A stretch of DNA of 64,000 bases from Pseudonocardiaceae bacterium. GTDB taxonomy: Bacteria; Actinomycetota; Actinomycetes; Mycobacteriales; Pseudonocardiaceae. A program made the position numbers and the translations under genes. Position 1 is the first letter of the stretch. Each line of letters opens with the position of its first letter. Shown piece after piece: positions 8,753 through 24,811 of the stretch. The stretch covers positions 36,472-100,471 of the forward strand of contig WHSZ01000014.1 in the NCBI GenBank assembly GCA_009379845.1. The letters run 5' to 3'. The notes under the pieces were generated by a model that saw only the letters and a program-made list of their open reading frames with translations, made no database searches and was not told where the DNA came from.

Positions 8753-9310
8753 ATGGGGCATTCGGTGTTCAGCGAGGAGTTCTGCCTGGATTTCGCGAGC
8801 ACACTGGAGTGGCGGCACACCCGGCGGGTCGACGCGTTTCGCAGCGCTGCTGATCTCGCGCCGTGGTTCTACTCAAATGGCGTACGGCTCCAGCTCGAGC
8901 CACTGGGCGAAGCAGCCTTGGCCAATGCTCACGAACTACGGGACGCGATCCACCATCTGGGGCTGAACTCCGTACACGGAAAGCACTTTGACGTCGACGA
9001 CGTCGCCACCGTCAACCGTTGCGCCCTGCCGGCGCCGCTGGCGATCACGCTCGACAGCGGCGGCACCATGCGATACTCCGGCGATTTCCCCGCACTGCTC
9101 TCCAGCATCGCCAGGGCAGCCATCGAGCTTCTCGCCGGGCCGCACCGCGAACTGATCCGCCAATGTGCCGAACCCGAATGCACCCGGTTGTTCCTGGACC
9201 ACTCACGCGCCGGCGCGCGGCGTTGGTGCGGCACTGCCTGCGGCAACAAGGTCAAGGCTGCCGCCTACCGGGAACGCAAGCGCTCCAAGAAGCCCAGCCG
9301 AGCGAACTAG
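8753..9310 (+). CDS. CGNR zinc-finger / ABATE domain putative regulator
   Basis: A 185-residue protein. An ABATE-type N-terminal domain (FCLDFASTLEWR) is followed by the C-terminal treble-clef CGNR zinc finger with spaced cysteines (CAEPECTRLF, RWCGTACGNKVKAAAYRER). The family is generally annotated as putative stress-responsive transcription regulators. It is divergent from the VOC/desulfhydrase fusion across a 211-base gap that is clearly AT-richer than its surroundings (about 8620-8700) and probably carries both promoters. The regulated gene may be that neighbour (inference). Confidence 0.85.
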   Translation: MGHSVFSEEFCLDFASTLEWRHTRRVDAFRSAADLAPWFYSNGVRLQLEPLGEAALANAHELRDAIHHLGLNSVHGKHFDVDDVATVNRCALPAPLAITLDSGGTMRYSGDFPALLSSIARAAIELLAGPHRELIRQCAEPECTRLFLDHSRAGARRWCGTACGNKVKAAAYRERKRSKKPSRAN

Positions 9311-9398
9311 ACCCGCTACGGTTCACGATCCACGGATGCCGGCTCACCGCCTACACCGTTGCGGTTATCAGCGCCGCCATTGCCGCCGGCTACCCATC

Positions 9399-10067
9399 TC
9401 AGGAGGACACGGGGACGCCGAGCTCTGCGAGCAGGCCCCGTACCCGGCGTTCGATCTCGTCGCGTACCGGGCGCACGTCGGCCACGTTCTTGCCTGCCGG
9501 ATCGTCCAGCGTCCAGTCCAGGTAGCGCTTGCCGGGGAACACCGGGCACGCGTCGCCGCAGCCCATGGTGATCACCACATCGGCGGCGCGCACGATCTCG
9601 TCGGTCCACGGCTTGGGAAACTCGCCGGAGATGTCGATGCCTCGCTCGGCCATCGCGGCGATCGCCGACGGGTTGATCTCATAGCCGGGCTCCGACCCGC
9701 CGGACCACGCCACGGCCCGATCGCCGGCCAGGTGGTGGAAGAACCCGAGTGCCATCTGGGACCGGCCGGCGTTGTGCACGCAGAGGAACAACACCGTCGG
9801 CTTCCCGTCCGCGTGGTGGCCCTCCACCCGGGCCAGCGCGCGCAACCGCTGCCGAGCGAACCGCTCTGCCAGCAACGGCAGGAAGTTGGGCACCGTGGCA
9901 TGCGACGCGAACTGTTCGTAGCTGGTATGCAGGAACCGCTCGATCGTCTCGGTGCCGAAGGCCCCGGCGAACTCGTCACCGAGCCGCGTCGCCGCGGTCC
10001 GCAACGCCAACCGCTGATCGATCGACAACTCTGGGTGTCCGTCGGCCTGGGCTTCGGTGTTGGTCAT
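9399..10067 (-). CDS. arsC: Arsenate reductase, low-molecular-weight phosphatase type with N-terminal helical domain
   Basis: A 222-residue protein. Residues about 10-85 form the helical domain common in actinobacterial arsenate reductases (FLHTSYEQFASHATVPNFLPL). Residues about 88-215 form an LMW-PTP fold with the catalytic P-loop CVHNAGRSQMA and a second cysteine pair region GCGDACPVFPG. Family knowledge suggests arsenate is reduced with mycothiol or thioredoxin systems. The start lies 3 bases after the ArsR-fusion stop, so the two are co-transcribed. No arsenite efflux gene (arsB or acr3) is next to it. Confidence 0.87.
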   Translation of the reverse strand: MTNTEAQADGHPELSIDQRLALRTAATRLGDEFAGAFGTETIERFLHTSYEQFASHATVPNFLPLLAERFARQRLRALARVEGHHADGKPTVLFLCVHNAGRSQMALGFFHHLAGDRAVAWSGGSEPGYEINPSAIAAMAERGIDISGEFPKPWTDEIVRAADVVITMGCGDACPVFPGKRYLDWTLDDPAGKNVADVRPVRDEIERRVRGLLAELGVPVSS

Positions 10068-15631: not shown

Positions 15632-16441
15632 GTGCACCGTTCGGGCGTTCACCACGATGACTTGGCGTTGGACGGCGCCGTGGTCCTCCATGCGGCGTTC
15701 ACACCCACGGAGGTAACCCGCCTTCGGATGGGGGTGGAGGCGGCCGTCGAGCGCATCACGCGGTGTGCGCGGTCCGAGCCGGAGCCGGTGGCCACGAGCC
15801 AGTCGAGCCAGGGGCACCGCCTGCAAACCGTGCACGGCACGTCGATTCATTGGGAGCCGGACACCAGCCGGCCAACGGTGCGGAATCTCCGGCCGGTAAC
15901 GCACTTGGATGCGCGTCTCACGCAACTCTGGGACGAGCCACGCCTGACCCGACCGGCAGCCGATCTTCTCGGGGTGCCCGAGGTTGGCCCGCTCACCTCG
16001 AAGATCAGCTTCAAGCGGGCCGGGGTGGGCTCGGAGTTCATCTGGCATCAGGACTACACGTTCCTCCAGCGCTTCCTGGGAACCGCCGCACGGGAAGCCG
16101 TGACCGCCATGGTGTTGCTCGACGACGCGGATGCGGACAACGGAGCGCTGACCCTGGTTCCGGGGAGCCACCTCGCCGGGCCGCGGCCCGACGGCGAGCC
16201 ACCGAACGCCGCCGACGCGCCACCGGTCACCATCGAGGCGGCGGCGGGATCGGTGCTGCTGTTCCCGACCCTGATGCTGCACAGCTCGGGGCCGAATCGA
16301 TCCGAACGAGACCGCCGGGCGCTGCTCCTCCTCTACCAGCCCGCGGGCCGTCCCAACCTCGACGAAACCCACTCACGGGTGGCCGAGACGGGCGGCGGCG
16401 ACCAGGTCACGAGCACCGCGGGATTCGGGAGCGGTGAGTAG
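15632..16441 (+). CDS. Phytanoyl-CoA dioxygenase (PhyH) family Fe(II)/2-oxoglutarate oxygenase
   Basis: A 269-residue PhyH-fold protein. The HxD iron ligands are in FIWHQDYTF (about residue 134), the distal His is in LMLHSSGPN (about 213) and an Arg-rich 2-oxoglutarate site follows (RDRRALLLLYQP). LTLVPGSH is the usual double-stranded-helix motif. The GTG at 15632 follows gagaggaag. The 3' end overlaps the tail of the ABC ATPase gene by 69 bases, tail to tail, so both transcripts are antisense there. It could hydroxylate a product of the neighbouring metallophore-like operon, but only its position suggests this. Confidence 0.84.
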   Translation: MHRSGVHHDDLALDGAVVLHAAFTPTEVTRLRMGVEAAVERITRCARSEPEPVATSQSSQGHRLQTVHGTSIHWEPDTSRPTVRNLRPVTHLDARLTQLWDEPRLTRPAADLLGVPEVGPLTSKISFKRAGVGSEFIWHQDYTFLQRFLGTAAREAVTAMVLLDDADADNGALTLVPGSHLAGPRPDGEPPNAADAPPVTIEAAAGSVLLFPTLMLHSSGPNRSERDRRALLLLYQPAGRPNLDETHSRVAETGGGDQVTSTAGFGSGE

Positions 16442-17935
16442 CCGGTAGGTGGATGCGGTTTCCACGCAGCGCCCGTCCTGCAGCAGGCAGATCTGATCCG
16501 CGATGCCCGAAATCGCGGCCAGATCGTGGCTGATCAGCATCAAGCTGATGTCCATCGTGGAGCGCGCATGCGCAAGGACGTCCAGCAGTTCGGCCTGGTT
16601 GACCAGATCCAACGACGCGGTGATCTCGTCGCACAGCAGCACGGCTGGACGTGCGAGTAGCGCCCTAGCCAACGCGGCACGCCGCAACTGCCCGCCGGAG
16701 AGCTCGAAGGGATGGCGGAGCAGCTGATCCGCTCGTAGGCCAAGTGATTCGCAGAGCTCGATTGCCTCGCGCCTGGCGTCCTCCCGTGCCATGCCGCGCA
16801 GCAGCCGTGCCGTCCTGGCCACCTGGACACCCACCGGCCGGTACTCGTCGAACGACGCACTGGCGTCCTGATGGACGTACTGCACCAGGCGCCGCTGCGC
16901 GGGTCCGCGTTGCCGCGCGGTCGCGGCCAGTGGTACGTCGCCGAGCAGCACCTGCCCGGTGCCCGGCCGGGTCAGTCCCGCCACGCATCGGGCCAGCGTG
17001 GTCTTGCCCGCACCGGAGCGACCGATGATCGCAAGGCACTGCCCGCCAGGGAGTACCAGGTTGATGTCGGCGAGCAGCTCGGTGCCGTCCGTGGCCCGCC
17101 GGCCGAGCCCGCGCACGACCAGATCACGCACGCCGTGCCTGGTACCGCGCGCGCCGGTTGGCCTGTCAAGCAACCGTGGTTCCGAGGCGAGCAGCCGCCG
17201 GCTGTGCGGCTGTGCGGGGGCGTGCAGCGGGCGGGTGCCAGGGCCGTGTTCGATCACCCGGCCGTCCTGCAGCACGATCACCTCATCGGCAAGCCGGCGG
17301 GCGAGCGCCAGGTCGTGGGTGAGCAGCACCAAGGCCGTGCCGGCGCCGACCAGCCCGGCCAGCATGTTGGTGACATCGGCTTTCGTCGTTGTGTCCAGCC
17401 CGGTGGTGGGTTCGTCCAGCACCAGGACCTCCGGCCGGGTGATCAGCGCCAGCGCCAGCGCCACCCGCTGCTGCTGCCCGCCGGAGAGCTGGTGCGGGTA
17501 GCGGCGCAGCAGCCACGGCTCGGCAGGCATCTGGGCCGCGTGCAGCGCCTCGGCAACCGCGGTGCGGCGGGCCGAACGGTGCCGGTGCCGCAGCCCCGCG
17601 TACTCCGCGAGCACGGACCCGATGCGGCGCACCGGATTCAGCACGGTCGCGGGGTGTTGCGGGAGATGCCCCAACACGCCGGCACGCGCCGCGCGGCGCC
17701 GCCGATCCGGTAGGCCGAGCAGTTCGGTGCCGTGTAACCGGACGCTGCCGGCCAGTTCGATACCGTGCCGGTACTCGCCGTGTAGCGCGAGCCCGAGCGT
17801 GGTCTTGCCGCTGCCGGACTCTCCGAGCACCGCGAGCACCCGCCCCGGAAAGATGCTCAGCTCGATTCCGTCCAGCAGGGTGTGGCCGGACGCGCGGGCA
17901 CGGAGGCCGGACGTGGCGAGGATGGCTTCGGTCAC
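16373..17935 (-). CDS. Fused double ATPase of a Dpp/Opp/Nik-type ABC importer
   Basis: One 520-residue polypeptide carries two complete ABC ATPase domains. The first (about 1-245) has Walker A GESGSGKTTLG, signature LSGGQQQRVALAL and Walker B VLVLDEPTT. The second (about 270-510) has GRSGAGKTTLARCV, LSGGQLRRAALARAL and VLLCDEITAS. These correspond to DppD and DppF. The GTG at 17935 overlaps the permease stop by 4 bases. It is the last gene of the riboswitch operon and energises uptake through the two upstream permeases. Confidence 0.92.
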   Translation of the reverse strand: MTEAILATSGLRARASGHTLLDGIELSIFPGRVLAVLGESGSGKTTLGLALHGEYRHGIELAGSVRLHGTELLGLPDRRRRAARAGVLGHLPQHPATVLNPVRRIGSVLAEYAGLRHRHRSARRTAVAEALHAAQMPAEPWLLRRYPHQLSGGQQQRVALALALITRPEVLVLDEPTTGLDTTTKADVTNMLAGLVGAGTALVLLTHDLALARRLADEVIVLQDGRVIEHGPGTRPLHAPAQPHSRRLLASEPRLLDRPTGARGTRHGVRDLVVRGLGRRATDGTELLADINLVLPGGQCLAIIGRSGAGKTTLARCVAGLTRPGTGQVLLGDVPLAATARQRGPAQRRLVQYVHQDASASFDEYRPVGVQVARTARLLRGMAREDARREAIELCESLGLRADQLLRHPFELSGGQLRRAALARALLARPAVLLCDEITASLDLVNQAELLDVLAHARSTMDISLMLISHDLAAISGIADQICLLQDGRCVETASTYRLLTAPESRGARDLVAAARLGHP

Positions 17936-18735
17936 GCCGGCACCACCCGCCGGTTCGCCAGCGCCCGATCCACCACCAGATTGCCACCGGTACACAGCAC
18001 GACCAGCAGCGCGGCCGGGACGAGCACGGCGAGTGGCTGGATGAACACCGCCTCCCGATTACGTTCGATCAGCACCGCCCAGTCGCTTGTGGACGGTTCC
18101 AGCCCAAACCCGAGGAAGTTCGCCGAGGCGATCAGGTACAGCACCAGGATCAGCCGGCTGCCGGCGTCCACCAAGGTCGGCCCGAGCACCGTGCGGCCCA
18201 CGTAGCCGAGGTGGATCCGCCACCAGGGTTCGCCTTGCAGCGTCATGGCCTCCACCGCGGCACGGCATCCGGGCGCCAGCGCCGCACCTCGCACCAGTCG
18301 GACCACGGCGGGCAGCTGCAACGCCGCGGCGGTCACGATCAGCATGCCGGCGCCCTGCCGGCCGGTCGCCGCCAGCACCAGCAGCACGAGCAGGCCGGGC
18401 AGCGCGAGTAGCAAGTCCAGCACCCGCAGCAGCGCCTCGTCCAACCACCGGTGCCGCTGCCCGGCGGCCAGCAGCGCGAGCGGGACACCGGCGAGGTAAC
18501 ACAGCAGCAACGCCAGCCCGGCCAGCAGCAGGACCGAACGCCCGCCGGTGAGCACCAGCGCGAGCACGTCCCTGCCGAGCACGTCGGTGCCGAGCGGGTG
18601 CGCGTCGCTCGGTGGCCGCAGCGGAGCCGCCTCGGATCGCGGCGAACCGGCCACCAGCGGCCCGGCAAGGGCCGTGGCCACCGGTGCTGCCAGCAGCACC
18701 CAGCCGAGCACCGCGGTCGGCGACAACCGTTTCAC
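17932..18735 (-). CDS. ABC transporter permease, DppC/NikC type
   Basis: From the GTG at 18735 the protein has 267 residues, about six membrane helices and the DppC features HPLGTDVLGRDVLALVLTGG near the N-terminus and ANFLGFGLEPSTSDWAVLI. The longer ORF to 19056 overlaps the upstream permease and is rejected. The start overlaps the DppB stop (GTGA). Family transporters import peptides, nickel or metal-metallophore complexes; the operon context favours the last. Confidence 0.9.
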   Translation of the reverse strand: MKRLSPTAVLGWVLLAAPVATALAGPLVAGSPRSEAAPLRPPSDAHPLGTDVLGRDVLALVLTGGRSVLLLAGLALLLCYLAGVPLALLAAGQRHRWLDEALLRVLDLLLALPGLLVLLVLAATGRQGAGMLIVTAAALQLPAVVRLVRGAALAPGCRAAVEAMTLQGEPWWRIHLGYVGRTVLGPTLVDAGSRLILVLYLIASANFLGFGLEPSTSDWAVLIERNREAVFIQPLAVLVPAALLVVLCTGGNLVVDRALANRRVVPA

Positions 18736-19673
18736 GCCACCATCTCCCGCTGCGGTACCAGCCGTCGGGCGGCCAGATCCGCGAGTAGATTGATGGCCAC
18801 GGTGGTTGCCGCGAACACCAGCGCGTAGCCCTGTACGGCTGGCAGATCGCGAGCCTTGACCGCGTCGACGAACGCGGAACCCAAGCCCGGCAACGCGAAC
18901 AGCGCCTCCACCACGACTACACCGCCCAGCAGCCCATCCACGGTGCGGGCCAGCTGCTGCACCGCGGGCCGCACCGCGTTGGGCAGCACGTGCCTGGCAA
19001 GCACGGTGCGTTCCGGCAGGCCGAGCAGCCGCGCGTGGATCGCGTACTCCGCGCACGTCGCCTCCGCCACGCCGATCCGCACCTGCCGAGCCAGCGCGCA
19101 GAGCTGCTTACTCACCAGCACCGCGACCGGCAGCACCAGCACGGCCGGCTCGCTGGCCAACGACCAGCCGGAGAGGCCAGCCGCGGTGGCCGGCAACCAC
19201 CCCGCTTGCACGCACAGCAAACCGATCAGCAGCAGCCCGAGCGCGAACTCCGGTACCGAATTCAGCAGCACCGCGACGGAACTGAGCGCGCGATCGGTTC
19301 GCGACCCCTGCCGCATCCCGCTCGCCATCCCGATCCCCAATGCCAGCGGAATCACCAGCGTAAGCGTGAGAATCGTGAGCAGCGCGGTGGTCGCGACGCC
19401 GCGGGCCAGCTGGTCCGCGACGGGTTCCCCGGTCAGCAACGAGGTACCGAAGTCGCCGTGCAGCAGGCCGCCCGTCCAGTCCAGGAACCGCTCGTGCGCC
19501 GGCCGATCCAGCTGGAGTCGTTCGCGCAGCGCAGCCACCTGCTCGTCGGTAGCGTGCTCGCCCGCGATTACGATCGCGGTGTCACCTGGCAGTACCGCGG
19601 TCAGCGTGAACACCGCGGCCAGGACCGCGGCGATCTGTAGGACCGCGACCGCGAGCCGGGCAACCCGCGACAT
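18732..19673 (-). CDS. ABC transporter permease, DppB/NikB type
   Basis: From the ATG at 19673 the protein has 313 residues and opens with a membrane helix (RLAVAVLQIAAVLAAVFTLT). It has DppB-family features such as LPGDTAIVIAGEHATDEQ, GDFGTSLLTGEPV and VNSVPEFALGLLLIG, though the last begins LLNSVPEF in this protein. About six membrane segments are visible. It starts 2 bases after the solute-binding-protein stop. The extended ORF to 19787 overlaps that gene. Confidence 0.9.
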   Translation of the reverse strand: MSRVARLAVAVLQIAAVLAAVFTLTAVLPGDTAIVIAGEHATDEQVAALRERLQLDRPAHERFLDWTGGLLHGDFGTSLLTGEPVADQLARGVATTALLTILTLTLVIPLALGIGMASGMRQGSRTDRALSSVAVLLNSVPEFALGLLLIGLLCVQAGWLPATAAGLSGWSLASEPAVLVLPVAVLVSKQLCALARQVRIGVAEATCAEYAIHARLLGLPERTVLARHVLPNAVRPAVQQLARTVDGLLGGVVVVEALFALPGLGSAFVDAVKARDLPAVQGYALVFAATTVAINLLADLAARRLVPQREMVA

Positions 19674-19675
19674 GC

Positions 19676-21208
19676 CTAACCGAGCGACGCGTGGTCGAAG
19701 CGGGCCCAGTGCAGCGAATTCGGTGGTGCCGCGCGCATTCCACGTAGTTCGCTGGAGATGCCCACGTTCCAGTTGCTGAATCCCCACACCAGCATCCCGC
19801 TGTCGTCGCGGATCAGGCGTTGCGCGTCGGCCAGCAGCTCGGCCCGCCTGGATTCGTCCTGGGTGCGCAGCGCCCGGTCGAACAGTGAGTCGAACCCGTC
19901 GGACTGGTAGCCGGTGTAGTTGTTGATGTCCGCCCCGCCGCGCATCCGCTGCCCGAGAAACGTCGCGATCGGCAGCGACGAGGTGCGGGTATGCCCGGCG
20001 ACGCCACTGCTTTCGATGTCCGAGAAGTACGTCTCGGATGGCCCCACCCGTGGGCTGACCCGGATGCCGAGCTCGCCCAGCTGCTCGGCGATCAGGCTCG
20101 CGGCCGATTCGAAGTACGGATCCACCGCGCTGGTGTTGAGCTCGAACGTGAGCCGCTCCGCCCCGGCCTCCCGCAGCAGCGACCTCGCCCGATCGACGTC
20201 CCGACGGCGTTGCGGCAGCGCATCCGGGTAGTACTTCAGCCCCTTGCCGAACAGGTCGTTGCCGAGCTGACCCTGACCGCTCAGCGCGACGTCCAGCAAC
20301 TGCTGCCGGTCAACACCGAGCAGCACGGCCCGTAGCACCCTCGGGTCTGAGAACGGCCGGCGGTCGATCTTGAACGCCACCGCTTGCATCGTGCCGTGCT
20401 TGGCGGCGAGCACCCCGGTGCGCTGCTCCCGATGCAGCTGGCTCGCGGAGTTCGCGCTCACGTCGTTCGCGTAGTGCACCTGACCGGAAAGCAACGCGGA
20501 AACTCGTGCGGCTTCCTCGTTGATGGACACGAACTCCACCTCAGCCGGGTTCGGCGCCCCCGCCCAGTACCCGTCGAACTTCTTGACCACTGTGGACTGT
20601 CCTGGCTGGAATGAGGCAAGCTGGAACGGCCCGGATCCCACGGGGGCACGGAACTTCGTGGTGCCGGCCGGGATGATCTCGGCGCCGGGTGCACCCCATG
20701 CGGAGGCGAATTCGAAGTTCGGTGCGCGCAGTACCAACTCCAGTTCGGTGGCGGATCGTGCCCGACTGGCTGTGAAGTCCACCTCGGTGAAGTACGGCCG
20801 GGCCGGCGACGCGGTGGCCGCCTCGGCGATCCGCCGGTAGCTGTACAGCACATCCTTCGCTGTCACCGGGCGGCCGTCATGGAATCTGGCCCGCCGCAAC
20901 CGGATCAGCCATCGCGTGCCGGTGGGGTCCGGTTCCCACGACACGGCGAGCCTTGGCACCGAACGCATCTCGCTGTCATAACCGACCAGCGTGTCGAACA
21001 ACGCCTTCGCCCTTGCCTGATCCACGAACAACGAGCTGATATGTGGATCAAGGGATTCGCCGGAACCACCGGTGGGAAACGCCGCGCGGATCCGGTTGTC
21101 CGAACCCGCGCCGGTACCGCCACAGCCGGGCACGGCCGCGATCGACGCCGCGGCCGCGAGCGCGGTGCCGAGCACCCGCCGCCTGCTCCACGAGCTTTCC
21201 ACCGTCAC
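19676..21208 (-). CDS. Family 5 extracellular solute-binding lipoprotein of the ABC importer
   Basis: From the GTG at 21208 the protein has 510 residues. The N-terminus has a twin-arginine-like RRRVLGTA, a hydrophobic stretch and a lipobox VPGC, so a membrane-anchored lipoprotein is expected. The mature part is a family 5 (DppA/NikA) binding protein (FHDGRPVTAKDVLYSYRRI, VEFVSINEEAARVSALLSG). The start overlaps the MFS stop by 4 bases. By analogy with CntA-type proteins it may bind a metal-loaded small ligand; no ligand-specific residue can be read off. Confidence 0.9.
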   Translation of the reverse strand: MTVESSWSRRRVLGTALAAAASIAAVPGCGGTGAGSDNRIRAAFPTGGSGESLDPHISSLFVDQARAKALFDTLVGYDSEMRSVPRLAVSWEPDPTGTRWLIRLRRARFHDGRPVTAKDVLYSYRRIAEAATASPARPYFTEVDFTASRARSATELELVLRAPNFEFASAWGAPGAEIIPAGTTKFRAPVGSGPFQLASFQPGQSTVVKKFDGYWAGAPNPAEVEFVSINEEAARVSALLSGQVHYANDVSANSASQLHREQRTGVLAAKHGTMQAVAFKIDRRPFSDPRVLRAVLLGVDRQQLLDVALSGQGQLGNDLFGKGLKYYPDALPQRRRDVDRARSLLREAGAERLTFELNTSAVDPYFESAASLIAEQLGELGIRVSPRVGPSETYFSDIESSGVAGHTRTSSLPIATFLGQRMRGGADINNYTGYQSDGFDSLFDRALRTQDESRRAELLADAQRLIRDDSGMLVWGFSNWNVGISSELRGMRAAPPNSLHWARFDHASLG

Positions 21209-22485
21209 GATGTCGCACTCCTTTCGCGCGCCGGTGTGGCGCGTTCCGTCCGAGCGAGCAGGCCCCGGCGTTCCATGGTGGCGGCACCCGCGGAGCCGGC
21301 CAGCCCCACCGCGAGGAGCGCCAGCCACGGCAGCCAGCGCAGTGCCGGCTCGCCCGTTCCGTCCAGCAGGGCCCCGACGAGCCCGCTCACGCCTGCCGCG
21401 ACGAGGCTGGAAACCAGGTAGTAGAAGCCGTAGTAGGTGCCAGCGAGGCGCTCACTTCCCACGATCGGCAGCAACTCCATGGCGAATGGGTTGGTGATCG
21501 CCATACCCACGGTGAACAGCGCCGTGGTCAGCAGCACGGGCAGGCAGGCGAGAAGTACCTGCGGGCTGAGCTCGCTGGCCTGCCTGGCCGGTTGCAGCGG
21601 GCCGCTGAGTAACACGGGCAGGAACGAGGCGCCCATGCACGCCAATCCGATGGTCACCGAACGGCCCGCGGTCCACCGGTTGCGGCACCACTGGGTGATC
21701 CGTACCTGGCCGAAAATCCCGATCAGTGTGGACACCGCGAACACCGCCGCGATCGCCCCGGCGAACCCGGACACTCGCTGCGCCTCGAGCGGCAATGTAA
21801 GGTACAGCTGGTTGTACAGCCCGAAGTACGCGGACAGCGTGAGGGTGAAGCCCAGAAATCGCCGATTGCCAACGACTTCCCGCCAGCTCGCCAGCATGCC
21901 CTGCTGCTGCGGTTCCACCTGCCGCCGAGGCAGCAGCGCGAGCTGCGCGACGGTGAGCGCGGCGAACGCCACACAGGCCACCAGCGCCACGAGCCGGAAA
22001 TCCACCATCAGCAGCGCGGTGCCGAGTAGCGGCCCGACCAGAGTGCCGGCGTGCGCGAAGACGTTGAACACCGCGAATACCTCGGCGCGTCGCTCGCCGC
22101 CCTCGTGCATGAGGTAGGTGCGTACCGCTGGGTTGAACAACGCGCCGGCGAGTCCGGTGAGCACCGCGGCGGCCAGCAACCCTGGCAGTGCGGTGAGCAC
22201 CGCGAACAACGCGAACGACACGACCCGCAGCGCGCAGCCGACGATGATCATCGGGCGGCAACCGAGCCGGTCGGCCGCGGTGCCGCCGATCAGGAACATG
22301 CCCTGCTGGCTGAGATTGCGCACCCCGAGTACCAGGCCGATCATCGCGGCGCCGTAGCCGAGATCGTCTCGCATGTACGAAGCGAGGAACGGCAGCAGCA
22401 TGTAGAAGCCGACATTGATGCCGAGCTGGTTGATCACCAGTAGCTTCGCCGCGGCGGACAGTTGCCGGAAGCCGATCTTGCTCAC
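21205..22485 (-). CDS. MFS transporter, probable small-molecule exporter
   Basis: From the GTG at 22485 the protein has 426 residues and about 12 membrane helices, with the MFS loop motif GTAADRLGCRPMIIVG between helices 2 and 3 and a sequence typical of drug:H+ antiporter-like exporters. It overlaps both the PLP enzyme upstream and the solute-binding protein downstream by 4 bases. Its place between a biosynthetic pair and an importer recalls CntE in staphylopine operons, which suggests it secretes the ligand made by the first two genes (inference). Confidence 0.88.
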   Translation of the reverse strand: MSKIGFRQLSAAAKLLVINQLGINVGFYMLLPFLASYMRDDLGYGAAMIGLVLGVRNLSQQGMFLIGGTAADRLGCRPMIIVGCALRVVSFALFAVLTALPGLLAAAVLTGLAGALFNPAVRTYLMHEGGERRAEVFAVFNVFAHAGTLVGPLLGTALLMVDFRLVALVACVAFAALTVAQLALLPRRQVEPQQQGMLASWREVVGNRRFLGFTLTLSAYFGLYNQLYLTLPLEAQRVSGFAGAIAAVFAVSTLIGIFGQVRITQWCRNRWTAGRSVTIGLACMGASFLPVLLSGPLQPARQASELSPQVLLACLPVLLTTALFTVGMAITNPFAMELLPIVGSERLAGTYYGFYYLVSSLVAAGVSGLVGALLDGTGEPALRWLPWLALLAVGLAGSAGAATMERRGLLARTERATPARERSATS

Positions 22486-23600
22486 CGGTCGACCTCCCGC
22501 GCGCACACGTCGCACGTCGCCGGCGGGTCACCGCGCCTGCCACACGGATCGCTGACCGTCCGGCACCGGCTCCAGTAACCGGTTGCCGCGCTCGGACCAT
22601 CCACTTCGGACGGTTCGGTGATGGTGGCAGGGATGAGACCGTGGCCTCGGCAGAACTCGTCGTCGTAGATGGTGTCCCAGTAGCGGTGCGGGCCGTCCGG
22701 GAACACCGCGACCACCCGGTCGGTGCCGGCCTTCCTCGCGTGCCAGGCGGCGACCAGTGCCGCCGCGCCGGTACTCCAGCCGCCTGTGACGAACGTGTCC
22801 CTGGCTAGCCGGCGGCAGGCGTCGACCGTTTCCGCCGGACCCACCCAGTGCACTTCGTCGAATGCCCGGTAAGCGACGTTGTCCGGGTGAATGCTGCTAC
22901 CGAGCCCGCGCATCAGCCGCCGGCCCGCTTGCTGGCCGAACACCGTGGAGCCCGGCGTGTCCACGCCGATGATCCGCACCGCTGGCCAGCGCTCGCGTAG
23001 CACGGCGGCGATTCCCGCGCTGTGCCCGCCGGTTCCTACACTGCATACCACCGCGTCCAGCTCGTCGAACTGCTCGACGAGTTCGCGTCCCAGCCCTCGG
23101 TAGCCCTCCGGGTTGTCCGGGTTGTTGTACTGGTCCGGCCAGTAGGCTTCCGGCAGCCCGGCGAGCAGCCGTCGCACCACTTCGAGCCGGGCGCGCTGCC
23201 AGCCGCCCACCGGATGGGGGCGATGCACGATCTCGACTCGGGCGCCGTAGGCGCACAGCAGCGCGCGCGTCATCGGGTCGAGCTCCTGATCGGCCACGAT
23301 CACCACGGGATGCCCGAGCAGGGCGCCGACATAGGCCAGCCCGATGCCCAGCGTTCCGCTGCTGGACTCCACCACGGTGCCGCCCGGCCCGAGCTGCCCA
23401 CGGTCTCGTGCCCCGGTGAGCATGGCCAGTGCGGCCCGTGCCTTCATGCTTCCGGGCGCGAGCCCTTCGAGCTTCGCCCAGAACCCGGGATGCCGCTTGG
23501 GAAGTGGAGTGTCCACACGCAACGCTGGGGTGTTGCCGATCAACTCGAGTAGTGATGCGCACCGCGGCCCGCCGAGCCGCTCCGCCGAGGTGGTCATCAT
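22482..23600 (-). CDS. Cysteine-synthase-family PLP enzyme with Cys-rich C-terminal extension
   Basis: A 372-residue fold-type II PLP enzyme: lysine motif APGSMKARAAL (about 54), substrate loop ESSSGTLGIGLAYVG, phosphate loop SVGTGGHSAGIAAVL. It is most like the cysteine synthase/SbnA group, which makes or uses beta-substituted alanines; SbnA yields a diaminopropionate precursor of a siderophore. The last 40 residues carry several cysteines (RCRTVSDPCG, TCDVCARE) outside the catalytic fold, perhaps a metal site. The ATG overlaps the DUF364 stop (ATGA). Likely substrate is a serine or cysteine derivative, unproven. Confidence 0.87.
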   Translation of the reverse strand: MMTTSAERLGGPRCASLLELIGNTPALRVDTPLPKRHPGFWAKLEGLAPGSMKARAALAMLTGARDRGQLGPGGTVVESSSGTLGIGLAYVGALLGHPVVIVADQELDPMTRALLCAYGARVEIVHRPHPVGGWQRARLEVVRRLLAGLPEAYWPDQYNNPDNPEGYRGLGRELVEQFDELDAVVCSVGTGGHSAGIAAVLRERWPAVRIIGVDTPGSTVFGQQAGRRLMRGLGSSIHPDNVAYRAFDEVHWVGPAETVDACRRLARDTFVTGGWSTGAAALVAAWHARKAGTDRVVAVFPDGPHRYWDTIYDDEFCRGHGLIPATITEPSEVDGPSAATGYWSRCRTVSDPCGRRGDPPATCDVCAREVDR

Positions 23601-24436
23601 TCGTGATCATCGCCCCCGTACGTGTAGATCTCGCCTGCGTCACCGGTCAGCCAGAAGAACGGGTACGGCTCCGCGGACAACGCGTCCACACCGGAACCGA
23701 GCAACTCGCGCAGCACGGCGCTGCCGGTCTGCGCGAACACCACCAGCGGCAGTTCGCGGCTCCGGCAGCACGCGGCGATCTCCTCGAAGGTGCCGTTGCC
23801 GAGCACCATCCCGGAGGCGAGCACTGCCCGGCAGCCCGCGATCGCGCGGGTGTGATCCCGCAGCACCGGCTCGCCCCACTCGGTGCGCCCGCCTTTCAGA
23901 TCGCAGGCCCGGTAGCTGATGCCCCGTTCCCGCAACGCGGCAAGCACCGAGTTGACCACGCCGATCACCGCGACCGGCCCGCCGTCGGGTAGCAGGGATA
24001 CCACCGCGCGGGCCCGGGCCTCGGATTTCCGCAGCGAGTCCCCGGCCGGCAGACGCACGGCGCGGGCACTCGGATGCCGGGCGTGTGGCAGCACGTTCAA
24101 CAGGTAAGCGTCCAAAGTGGCCACTCGCACGGCCCGGTCCGGGTGGCCGAGCAATTCGGCGACGCCGCGCCCGGCGGTATCTCGTACCGCACGCTCGTCG
24201 AGTTGTCCTGGCTCAACCGCGCAGGATCCGACGGCCGCGCCGACGCGGATGCTGAACACCGTGTTGAGGTAGCCGGCCTGCCGGCCGGCGTGCTTGGCTC
24301 CCTGCACGGTCAGGAAAGCCACGGATGCGTGGGTATCACTAGCGCGCTCGCGGGCGAAGTCGCCGGCGAGCGCGCGCCGCACAAGGGAGTCGAGGGTGGG
24401 CACGGTTGTTCGGGTAGCGGGCACAGGTGTCTCCAT
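23597..24436 (-). CDS. DUF4213/DUF364 (putative heavy-metal chelation) protein
   Basis: A 279-residue protein matching DUF4213 followed by the Rossmann-like DUF364 domain (VVSLLPDGGPVAVIGVVN, ASGMVLGNGTFEEIAACC, PLVVFAQTGSAVLRELLGSG). Pfam names DUF364 a putative heavy-metal chelation domain; its activity is unknown. It is the first large gene after the cobalamin riboswitch and leader ORF and overlaps the PLP gene by 4 bases, so both should be induced when cobalamin is scarce. A role in making or handling a metal ligand is inferred. Confidence 0.83.
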   Translation of the reverse strand: METPVPATRTTVPTLDSLVRRALAGDFARERASDTHASVAFLTVQGAKHAGRQAGYLNTVFSIRVGAAVGSCAVEPGQLDERAVRDTAGRGVAELLGHPDRAVRVATLDAYLLNVLPHARHPSARAVRLPAGDSLRKSEARARAVVSLLPDGGPVAVIGVVNSVLAALRERGISYRACDLKGGRTEWGEPVLRDHTRAIAGCRAVLASGMVLGNGTFEEIAACCRSRELPLVVFAQTGSAVLRELLGSGVDALSAEPYPFFWLTGDAGEIYTYGGDDHE

Positions 24437-24490
24437 CCGGTTCGTGGGAACGGTTGGAACATCCGGCAGAAGGATCGCCGGACCTGTGCG

Positions 24491-24550
24491 TTACGTGCGG
24501 AAGTGTTCCTGTCGCTTCAGGACTGAGATGTGCGCCGCGTGGTGCCGCAT
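24491..24550 (-). CDS. 19-residue leader peptide between riboswitch and operon
   Basis: A short ORF (MRHHAAHISVLKRQEHFRT, stop TAA) has the best ribosome-binding site of the region, ggaggaggtaccc, immediately before its ATG. It lies just downstream of the cobalamin aptamer and ends 54 bases before the DUF364 start. Four of 19 residues are His. It may be the element the riboswitch directly controls, coupling translation or attenuation to the operon. It has loose resemblance (LKRQEHFR) to the short leader peptides found before sulfur-metabolism genes in actinobacteria, without their cysteines. Confidence 0.55.
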   Translation of the reverse strand: MRHHAAHISVLKRQEHFRT

Positions 24551-24587
24551 GGGTACCTCCTCCGGGGCTCCGCGACCCCGTGTGAAT

Positions 24588-24750
24588 CGGTACGACGGCG
24601 CCAGTCTCCTGACTCGTGGATCGGCGTTGCCCTCCGGCCTTCCCGCCGGTAACCCGGCAGTGGCGTCGGTGGAGGGAATTCCCCACTCACAGTGGCGGGA
24701 CCGTGCCGGATTCGCACCGGCTTCCTGCACACCGTCGCGTGAACGTCTTT
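24588..24750 (-). ncRNA. Cobalamin (B12) riboswitch
   Basis: Read on the minus strand, the segment has the hallmarks of the AdoCbl aptamer in order: GGAAGCCGGTGcGAATCCGG, the CGGTCCCGCCACTGTGA core, a second GCCACTG element, GGGAAGGCC, GCCGATCC and the closing GAGTCAGGAGACTGGC. It precedes the DUF364-to-ABC operon by about 150 bases. In known cases cobalamin binding represses the downstream genes. The ribosome-binding site of the leader ORF lies within 35 bases of the aptamer's 3' side, so translational control is plausible. Confidence 0.95.
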
Positions 24751-24753
24751 TCG

Positions 24754-24782
24754 AAGGTTGCAGCCACCCCCGGCATTGTCAA
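24754..24782 (-). promoter_or_regulatory. Probable sigma-70-type promoter of the riboswitch operon
   Basis: On the minus strand TTGACA (24782-24777) is followed after 17 bases by the weak -10 candidate AACCTT. A start a few bases further on would place the 5' end of the RNA right at the beginning of the aptamer, which supports the assignment. Confidence 0.5.
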
Positions 24783-24784
24783 GA

Positions 24785-24811
24785 CGTTGTTGCGAGGAAT
24801 GTGCAACAACG
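24785..24811. promoter_or_regulatory. 9-bp perfect inverted repeat upstream of the -35, putative operator
   Basis: CGTTGTTGC and GCAACAACG are separated by 9 bases. The palindrome ends 2 bases upstream of the predicted TTGACA of the riboswitch operon, a position used by activators or by repressors. I do not recognise it as a Zur, IdeR or NikR box. Confidence 0.5.

Follow-up and report, generated by a model that had tools for sequence, protein, structure and literature searches.

The window analysed here is a stretch of 64,000 nucleotides (nt) from a Pseudonocardiaceae bacterium (GenBank assembly GCA_009379845.1, contig WHSZ01000014.1, positions 36,472 to 100,471 of the forward strand). It contains an operon of seven co-directional minus-strand genes (16373–24436) downstream of a cobalamin (vitamin B12) aptamer. 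We consider it probable, at roughly 73%, that this operon is a B12-repressed cobalt metallophore (cobaltophore) system, related to zinc versions that are controlled by the regulator Zur. The fuller proposal is held somewhat less firmly, and we still lean towards it: a first dedicated cobaltophore that is secreted, represents a new biosynthetic class (DUF364 plus an SbnA-like pyridoxal phosphate (PLP) enzyme), is made only at low B12 and evolved from a Zur-controlled zincophore pathway that was moved under a cobalamin riboswitch with translation coupled through an upstream open reading frame (uORF).

The computational evidence comprises the riboswitch and the uORF behind it, the gene content, the conservation of the unit in relatives, the co-regulation of its halves where it is split, and the Zur boxes of its sister clades. 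The features of the operon and its leader are listed below in the direction of transcription (SD, Shine-Dalgarno sequence; SBP, substrate-binding protein).

24777–24782, minus strand: −35 box TTGACA of the operon promoter, with a weak −10-like caacct at about 24755–24760
24580–24751, minus strand: cobalamin riboswitch aptamer, RF00174 (100.9 bits, cut-off 31.5 bits, E 4.5e-24, full model 1–189)
24563–24580, minus strand: conserved hairpin CGGGG-TCGCGGAG-CCCCG, directly 5' of the SD of the uORF
24556–24563, minus strand: strong SD GGAGGAGG of the uORF, between hairpin and uORF start
24491–24550, minus strand: leader ORF (uORF) of 19 codons, MRHHAAHISVLKRQEHFRT, between aptamer and operon
24430–24434, minus strand: SD GGAGA of the DUF364 gene, common to most relatives
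23597–24424, minus strand: DUF364 enzyme (PF04016), probable GTG start at 24424; a longer ORF opens at ATG 24436
22482–23600, minus strand: PLP fold-II enzyme, SbnA/cysteine-synthase-like (PALP, 200.6 bits)
21205–22485, minus strand: MFS exporter (MFS_1, 122 bits; nearest named family MdtH, below its cut-off)
19676–21208, minus strand: family-5 substrate-binding lipoprotein (SBP_bac_5, 234 bits; N-terminal lipoprotein-like signal)
18732–19673, minus strand: ABC permease of DppB/NikB type (BPD_transp_1; best NCBIfam match Opp2B 'nickel ABC transporter permease', below its cut-off)
17932–18735, minus strand: ABC permease of DppC/NikC type (BPD_transp_1)
16373–17935, minus strand: fused double ABC ATPase of NikD-NikE/CntD-CntF type (two ABC_tran domains; NikD 306 and NikE 299 bits, below their cut-offs)

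Five of the six gene junctions are exact 4-nt stop/start overlaps (ATGA/GTGA), the junction between SBP and DppB being a 2-nt gap. An initial annotation of the DNA had described seven minus-strand genes with mostly 4-base overlaps, and this is borne out, as are its family assignments (DUF364, PALP, MFS_1, SBP_bac_5, two BPD_transp_1 and a fused two-domain ABC ATPase). Its left boundary at 15632 has to be corrected to 16373, since the former position is the start of a convergent plus-strand gene. This gene (15632–16441) encodes a PhyH-type 2-oxoglutarate oxygenase/dioxygenase and overlaps the 3' end of the ATPase gene by 69 nt. It was rejected as an operon member, being convergent and not found near relatives.

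Conservation of the gene cluster

Within the order, 32 of the 299 genomes searched contain relatives of the DUF364 protein. A wider scan, covering about 85,000 species genomes, gave 310, and the best 80 of these were used. Three clades share the combination of DUF364, SbnA-like PLP enzyme, MFS exporter and ABC importer. In the DUF364 tree each of them, A1, A2 and B, forms one side of one branch (SH-aLRT 96, 84 and 100, respectively). Clade A1 comprises 14 genomes (Saccharopolyspora, Actinopolyspora, Prauserella, Saccharomonospora and the window's genome) and has the order DUF364–PLP enzyme–MFS–SBP–DppB–DppC–ATPase. Clade A2, from Streptomyces, Kitasatospora, Rhodococcus and Actinokineospora, is longer: ATP-grasp ligase–DUF364–PLP enzyme–enolase-superfamily racemase–MFS–methyltransferase–SBP–DppB–DppC–ATPase. 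DUF364, PLP enzyme, ligase and racemase occur together in all 67 A2 loci (L090–L156), and A1 lacks the ligase, racemase and methyltransferase. Clade B (20 loci: L037–L042, L052–L056 and L067–L075) is arranged as FecCD–ATPase–Peripla_BP_2–(methyltransferase)–DUF364–GHMP kinase–SbnA-like PLP enzyme, with an MFS exporter in or beside the cluster. Here DUF364, the PLP enzyme and FecBCD-type genes are present in 20/20 loci and the GHMP kinase in 18/20. The importer of B is unrelated to that of A. Since the unit is conserved across the three clades in spite of this, the simplest reading is that a compound is made, exported and taken up again. The window's genome holds a B cluster (L037, contig C31) in addition to A1.

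Several observations concern the surroundings of these clusters. A divergent GNAT acetyltransferase gene often lies upstream of A1 and A2 clusters (L082–L084 and L086 at about 8.8–9.0 kb, and several A2 loci); it is not part of the operon in the window. In Streptomyces sp. AP-93 an extra PLP enzyme–MFS pair on the opposite strand adjoins the A2 cluster (L126:2355–5000), with 53% (PLP enzyme) and 42% (MFS) identity to the window's proteins. DUF364 relatives are also found on plasmids in nine PLSDB records, for example NZ_LR134468.1:41870–42616 (Tsukamurella tyrosinosolvens) and NZ_CP104318.1:55811–56596 (Streptomyces angustmyceticus), so the clusters may move horizontally.

The seven-gene order is intact in nine of the 13 named A1 relatives. 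The other four (genomes G299, G300, G302 and G303; loci L077, L078, L080 and L081) retain DUF364–PLP enzyme–MFS, and their ABC genes have moved. In G299, G300 and G303 a different contig holds the SBP orthologue (64–69% identity), with DppB and DppC after it and a cobalamin riboswitch of its own immediately before it (98.7, 92.2 and 89.9 bits). The platform of hairpin, SD and uORF seen at the A1 operon recurs in two of these leaders. The fourth genome has a more distant homologue (identity of 36% with the window's SBP and of 44% with the A2 type), again behind a cobalamin riboswitch (48.3 bits). Since a genome contains some 5–10 such riboswitches, their presence at all four detached importers is far beyond chance. 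Enzymes, exporter and importer are thus linked functionally, independent of operon membership. Hence, the binding protein is tied to the enzymes, as the initial annotation had assumed.

These split operons bear on the idea that the transporter is an ordinary dipeptide or nickel importer whose place beside enzymes for an unrelated metabolite is incidental. Family-5 systems are promiscuous, and the importer genes reach no curated nickel or staphylopine family cut-off (in NCBIfam, the NikA, NikB, NikC, NikD and NikE equivalog scores are all too low). Against this, the unit persists across A1 and A2, both halves of the split operons retain a cobalamin riboswitch, and the enzymes themselves stand behind B12 or Zur elements. 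We regard an incidental association as highly improbable.

Regulatory signals of the three clades

A cobalamin riboswitch precedes DUF364 in 14/14 A1 genomes: RF00174 was found a few hundred nt upstream in all 13 named loci and in the window. A core-motif scan detected it in 13/13 named A1 loci and 0/67 A2 loci, and an RF00174 search of seven A2 loci revealed no riboswitch at the operon. Word counting upstream of A2 clusters instead gave an AT-rich near-palindrome, TGAAAAYGATTATCG, which matches the Zur box tGaNNatSatNNtCa defined by chromatin immunoprecipitation in Streptomyces coelicolor (PMC5472717). In a scan with TGANAATNATTNTCA (at least 10 of 11 positions), a predicted Zur box was located at most 330 nt upstream of the first gene in 57 of the 67 A2 loci, with only 3 matches elsewhere, and in 18 of the 20 B loci, mostly in the promoter or divergent region. 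In A1 there was one Zur-like site in 260 kb, away from the operon, and within 1 kb upstream of the operons the best score was 6–8 of 11 in all 14 leaders. Iron control through IdeR/DtxR boxes was considered and rejected, the single weak match being in L038.

Judged by these predicted elements, the regulatory signal is of zinc type in A2 and B and B12 in A1. If B is taken as outgroup, a single replacement of Zur by riboswitch control at the origin of A1 is the most economical history. Since the sister kits carry sites for a zinc regulator, it appears that a chemistry first used for zinc was given over to cobalt. The initial annotation had taken B12 control as pointing to cobalt, and the Zur box in sister clades at the place of the A1 riboswitch supports it. 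On the same predictions the two DUF364 clusters of the window's genome are one zinc-signal version (B, with a Zur-type box) and one B12-signal version (A1). The ten-gene A2 cluster of many Streptomyces and Rhodococcus is, by its predicted genes and sites, a strong candidate for an undescribed zincophore. An example is L092:8754–20000, where the Zur box is accompanied by a DgcA/dipeptide-epimerase-like racemase and a family-5 importer.

The same boxes also raise the question of selectivity. A broad-spectrum metallophore for Zn, Ni, Co and Cu, similar to staphylopine, might have acquired B12 control, cobalt being the limiting use; its selectivity would then be regulatory and not chemical. The occurrence of Zur boxes with the same core enzymes means that the ligand chemistry probably binds zinc too, and the ligand of A1, where the A2 ligase, racemase and methyltransferase are missing, may be simpler and less selective. 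However, the 14 A1 loci have the B12 switch only, and the association of the Zur-type box with the B cluster in the window's genome suggests a division of labour. We therefore judge this alternative unlikely, and a ligand serving cobalt remains the preferred interpretation.

The leader of the operon

The aptamer passes the covariance search as the initial annotation had supposed, and its score of more than three times the cut-off excludes a chance match. It is the strongest of six RF00174 matches in the window's genome, five of which exceed the cut-off; the other four precede metE, cobN, cbiC/cbiX and a BtuFCD-like importer. The riboswitch targets of this genome are thus a normal B12 regulon. 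A TTGAC motif lies 60–66 nt upstream of the aptamer core in 13/14 A1 leaders and in 3/3 split importer leaders examined.

The hairpin behind the aptamer is nearly invariant in 14/14 A1 leaders, and its pattern matched A1 loci only among the loci then compared. It is likely the expression platform. The short ORF that follows was overlooked in the initial annotation. In all 14 leaders a start codon 3–8 nt past GAGGAGG opens an ORF of 19–38 codons; the encoded peptide sequences are not conserved across them. Pairing between the uORF end and the SD of DUF364 is possible in three relatives and would couple translation of the two reading frames. Presumably, B12 blocks translation of the uORF and thereby of the operon. 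A measured precedent is provided by the Mycobacterium tuberculosis metE and ppe2 leaders, in which a B12 riboswitch is likewise combined with a short translated ORF that affects expression of the downstream gene (PMC11260477). Leader sequence and target genes are different there, whereas in A1 the platform of hairpin and SD is kept in every leader.

DUF364 probably starts at GTG 24424 behind the SD GGAGA rather than at ATG 24436, because the latter abuts the SD and most relatives have GGAGA-n-GTG. Very short ORFs also follow other riboswitches of the window's genome: MAPD overlaps the probable cobN start (L058:7150–7210), and MVPESCARGAGCVPG lies between riboswitch and cbiC (L059:7858–7990). 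Coupling through uORFs may accordingly be general in this genome.

Enzymes, transporter and proposed pathway

The DUF364 protein scores 23.6 bits against PF04016, barely above the cut-off of 23 bits. Its AlphaFold model (pLDDT 93.1) has as top Foldseek matches the two solved DUF364 structures, 3l5o (Dhaf4260) and 3npg (PH1506), and the profile matches 3npg at 6e-6. By the model, both proteins share the fold of the window's protein at about 15% sequence identity; no SbnA-like partner or B12 switch has been described for them. From genome context near metal ABC transporters, DUF364 proteins were proposed to help make metal chelators (Miller et al. 2010, PMC2954201). The present data place this idea in a defined setting. 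The same study noted a DUF364 pocket resembling corrinoid/heme sites (PMC2954201). Together with B12 control of the operon, this could mean that the operon makes or moves an intermediate of the corrinoid pathway or a lower-ligand precursor, or salvages cobamides, instead of a metal chelator. B12 salvage, however, fails to explain why this enzyme pair and exporter should also be found behind Zur boxes and combined with two different importers, and the window's genome has the separate BtuFCD-like importer behind another riboswitch. A corrinoid role is accordingly given very little weight compared with chelator synthesis.

In staphyloferrin B synthesis SbnA joins O-phosphoserine to glutamate, the phosphoserine being supplied by the kinase SbnI. 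SbnA (TIGR03945, an equivalog) is the best NCBIfam match of the window's PLP enzyme, with 268.4 bits against a cut-off of 349.95, so that the enzyme is homologous and not classed as SbnA; it is also the best match of the type B enzyme (135 bits). The window's enzyme aligns to the SbnA structures 5d84–5d87. The PLP lysine (K53) and the Y152-equivalent (Y158) are kept and invariant across types A and B. In contrast to SbnA a glycine occupies the position of S185, and the operon is without an SbnB partner or synthetases of the NIS type (siderophore synthesis independent of nonribosomal peptide synthetases, NRPS). The glycine and the score below the cut-off indicate that the substrates may differ from those of SbnA. 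The GHMP kinase of B clusters would fit the supply of a phosphorylated hydroxyamino acid, in parallel with the kinase that feeds SbnA. Since the PLP enzyme is SbnA-related and B clusters contain this kinase, an aminopolycarboxylate-like product is expected, for which DUF364 and the PLP enzyme may be enough. The fold of the family-5 SBP (model pLDDT 76) resembles binding proteins of the Nik, Opp and opine classes and does not discriminate between them.

Our proposal for the operon is as follows. At low cobalamin the leader RNA would free the SD of the uORF, and translation of the uORF would permit that of the operon. The SbnA-like enzyme would couple activated serine, or a similar compound, to another amino acid, and DUF364 would finish a small aminopolycarboxylate-like ligand. 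The ligand would be exported by the MFS protein, and its metal complex retaken by the binding lipoprotein with the DppBC/ATPase importer. The imported cobalt would supply cobalt insertion into B12.

Cobalt supply and evaluation

The window's genome has B12-synthesis genes (CbiC, CobN and CbiX) behind riboswitches, and CbiC is present in 14/14 A1 genomes. The importers CbiM, NicO and CbtA are all missing in 7/14 A1 genomes vs 3/26 relatives without A1 (Fisher p=0.018, 40 genomes). These figures are supporting, not decisive, for A1 as a cobalt supplier. A sub-threshold cobalamin aptamer (26.8 bits) was observed in the window's genome (G000:C87:8441–8513) just upstream of CbtA (8794–9468), consistent with predicted B12 control of a putative cobalt transporter. 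Assignment of this weak riboswitch to kdpA was wrong, as CbtA lies between.

Several points weigh against the cobaltophore proposal. A known or predicted cobalt importer is additionally present in half of the A1 genomes, among them the window's (CbtA, C87:8794), and because the genomes are related the Fisher test overstates their independence. The score of the PLP enzyme is too low for SbnA, and no SbnB-type partner is encoded in the operon; a true SbnB member (TIGR03944, 406.8 bits) is encoded elsewhere in the genome, on contig C86, unlinked to the operon. For DUF364, chelator synthesis is a candidate role. The SBP fold cannot tell metal chelates from peptides or opines, in a model of limited confidence. 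Zur-like sites occur in six places of the window's genome, one being the type B cluster; the others lie beside ABC transporters, methyltransferases and a flavoprotein and do not adjoin textbook zinc genes. Product, metal binding and transport are predictions from computed data.

Comparison with known systems

The closest functional analogues are the staphylopine and pseudopaline (cnt) systems, which likewise unite biosynthetic enzymes, an MFS exporter and a Nik/Opp-type ABC importer under common repression by metal; the window's ATPase resembles CntD/CntF almost as much as NikD/NikE. The parallel drawn in the initial annotation stands for this layout and not for the enzymes. None of the seven operon genes encodes a nicotianamine-synthase-like enzyme (CntL) or an opine dehydrogenase (CntM), as had been noted there; all belong to other families, and so do the conserved neighbour genes scanned in relatives. 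The window's operon has DUF364 and the SbnA-like enzyme in their place, and a B12 riboswitch instead of a metal-sensing repressor.

In Amycolatopsis japonicum, an actinomycete, the aminopolycarboxylate EDDS serves as a zincophore under Zur control and is made by neither NRPS nor NIS enzymes (PMC4993170, PMC6103462). The EDDS/EDHA (aes) clusters resemble clades A2 and B in the predicted regulation and chelator class of the latter. Type B may be the aes cluster; the finding of no DUF364 match in seven genomes of group g4 (possibly Amycolatopsis) speaks weakly against it. Nik/Opp-family importers under a B12 riboswitch were noted by 2009 in Clostridium tetani and Desulfitobacterium hafniense and set apart from nickel-specific ones (PMC2667541). 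They share this arrangement with the window's operon but differ in that biosynthetic and export genes are not described with them in the parts of that paper covered here.

A literature search limited to open-access papers found none that uses 'cobaltophore' or a close synonym and none that joins cobalamin riboswitch, metallophore and cobalt; DUF364, under this name or a Pfam synonym, appears in just seven of them. Metal-repressed systems that make, export and re-import a ligand are known as a kind; enzymes, metal and control appear to be new here. Likewise, the DUF364-chelator idea dates from 2010, and this system and its assignment to cobalt appear new.

Significance

Siderophores, zincophores, chalkophores and lanthanophores are known, and bacterial B12 supplies other organisms. 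The locus bears on the competition for trace cobalt among soil bacteria that make B12, and it offers a testable case in accessible strains such as Saccharopolyspora spinosa. It provides a candidate role for the DUF364 enzyme family and points to candidate zincophores under Zur control in two large families, one of which is found in many Streptomyces. Sister pathways with predicted zinc-type and B12 control would constitute a natural experiment on metal selectivity.

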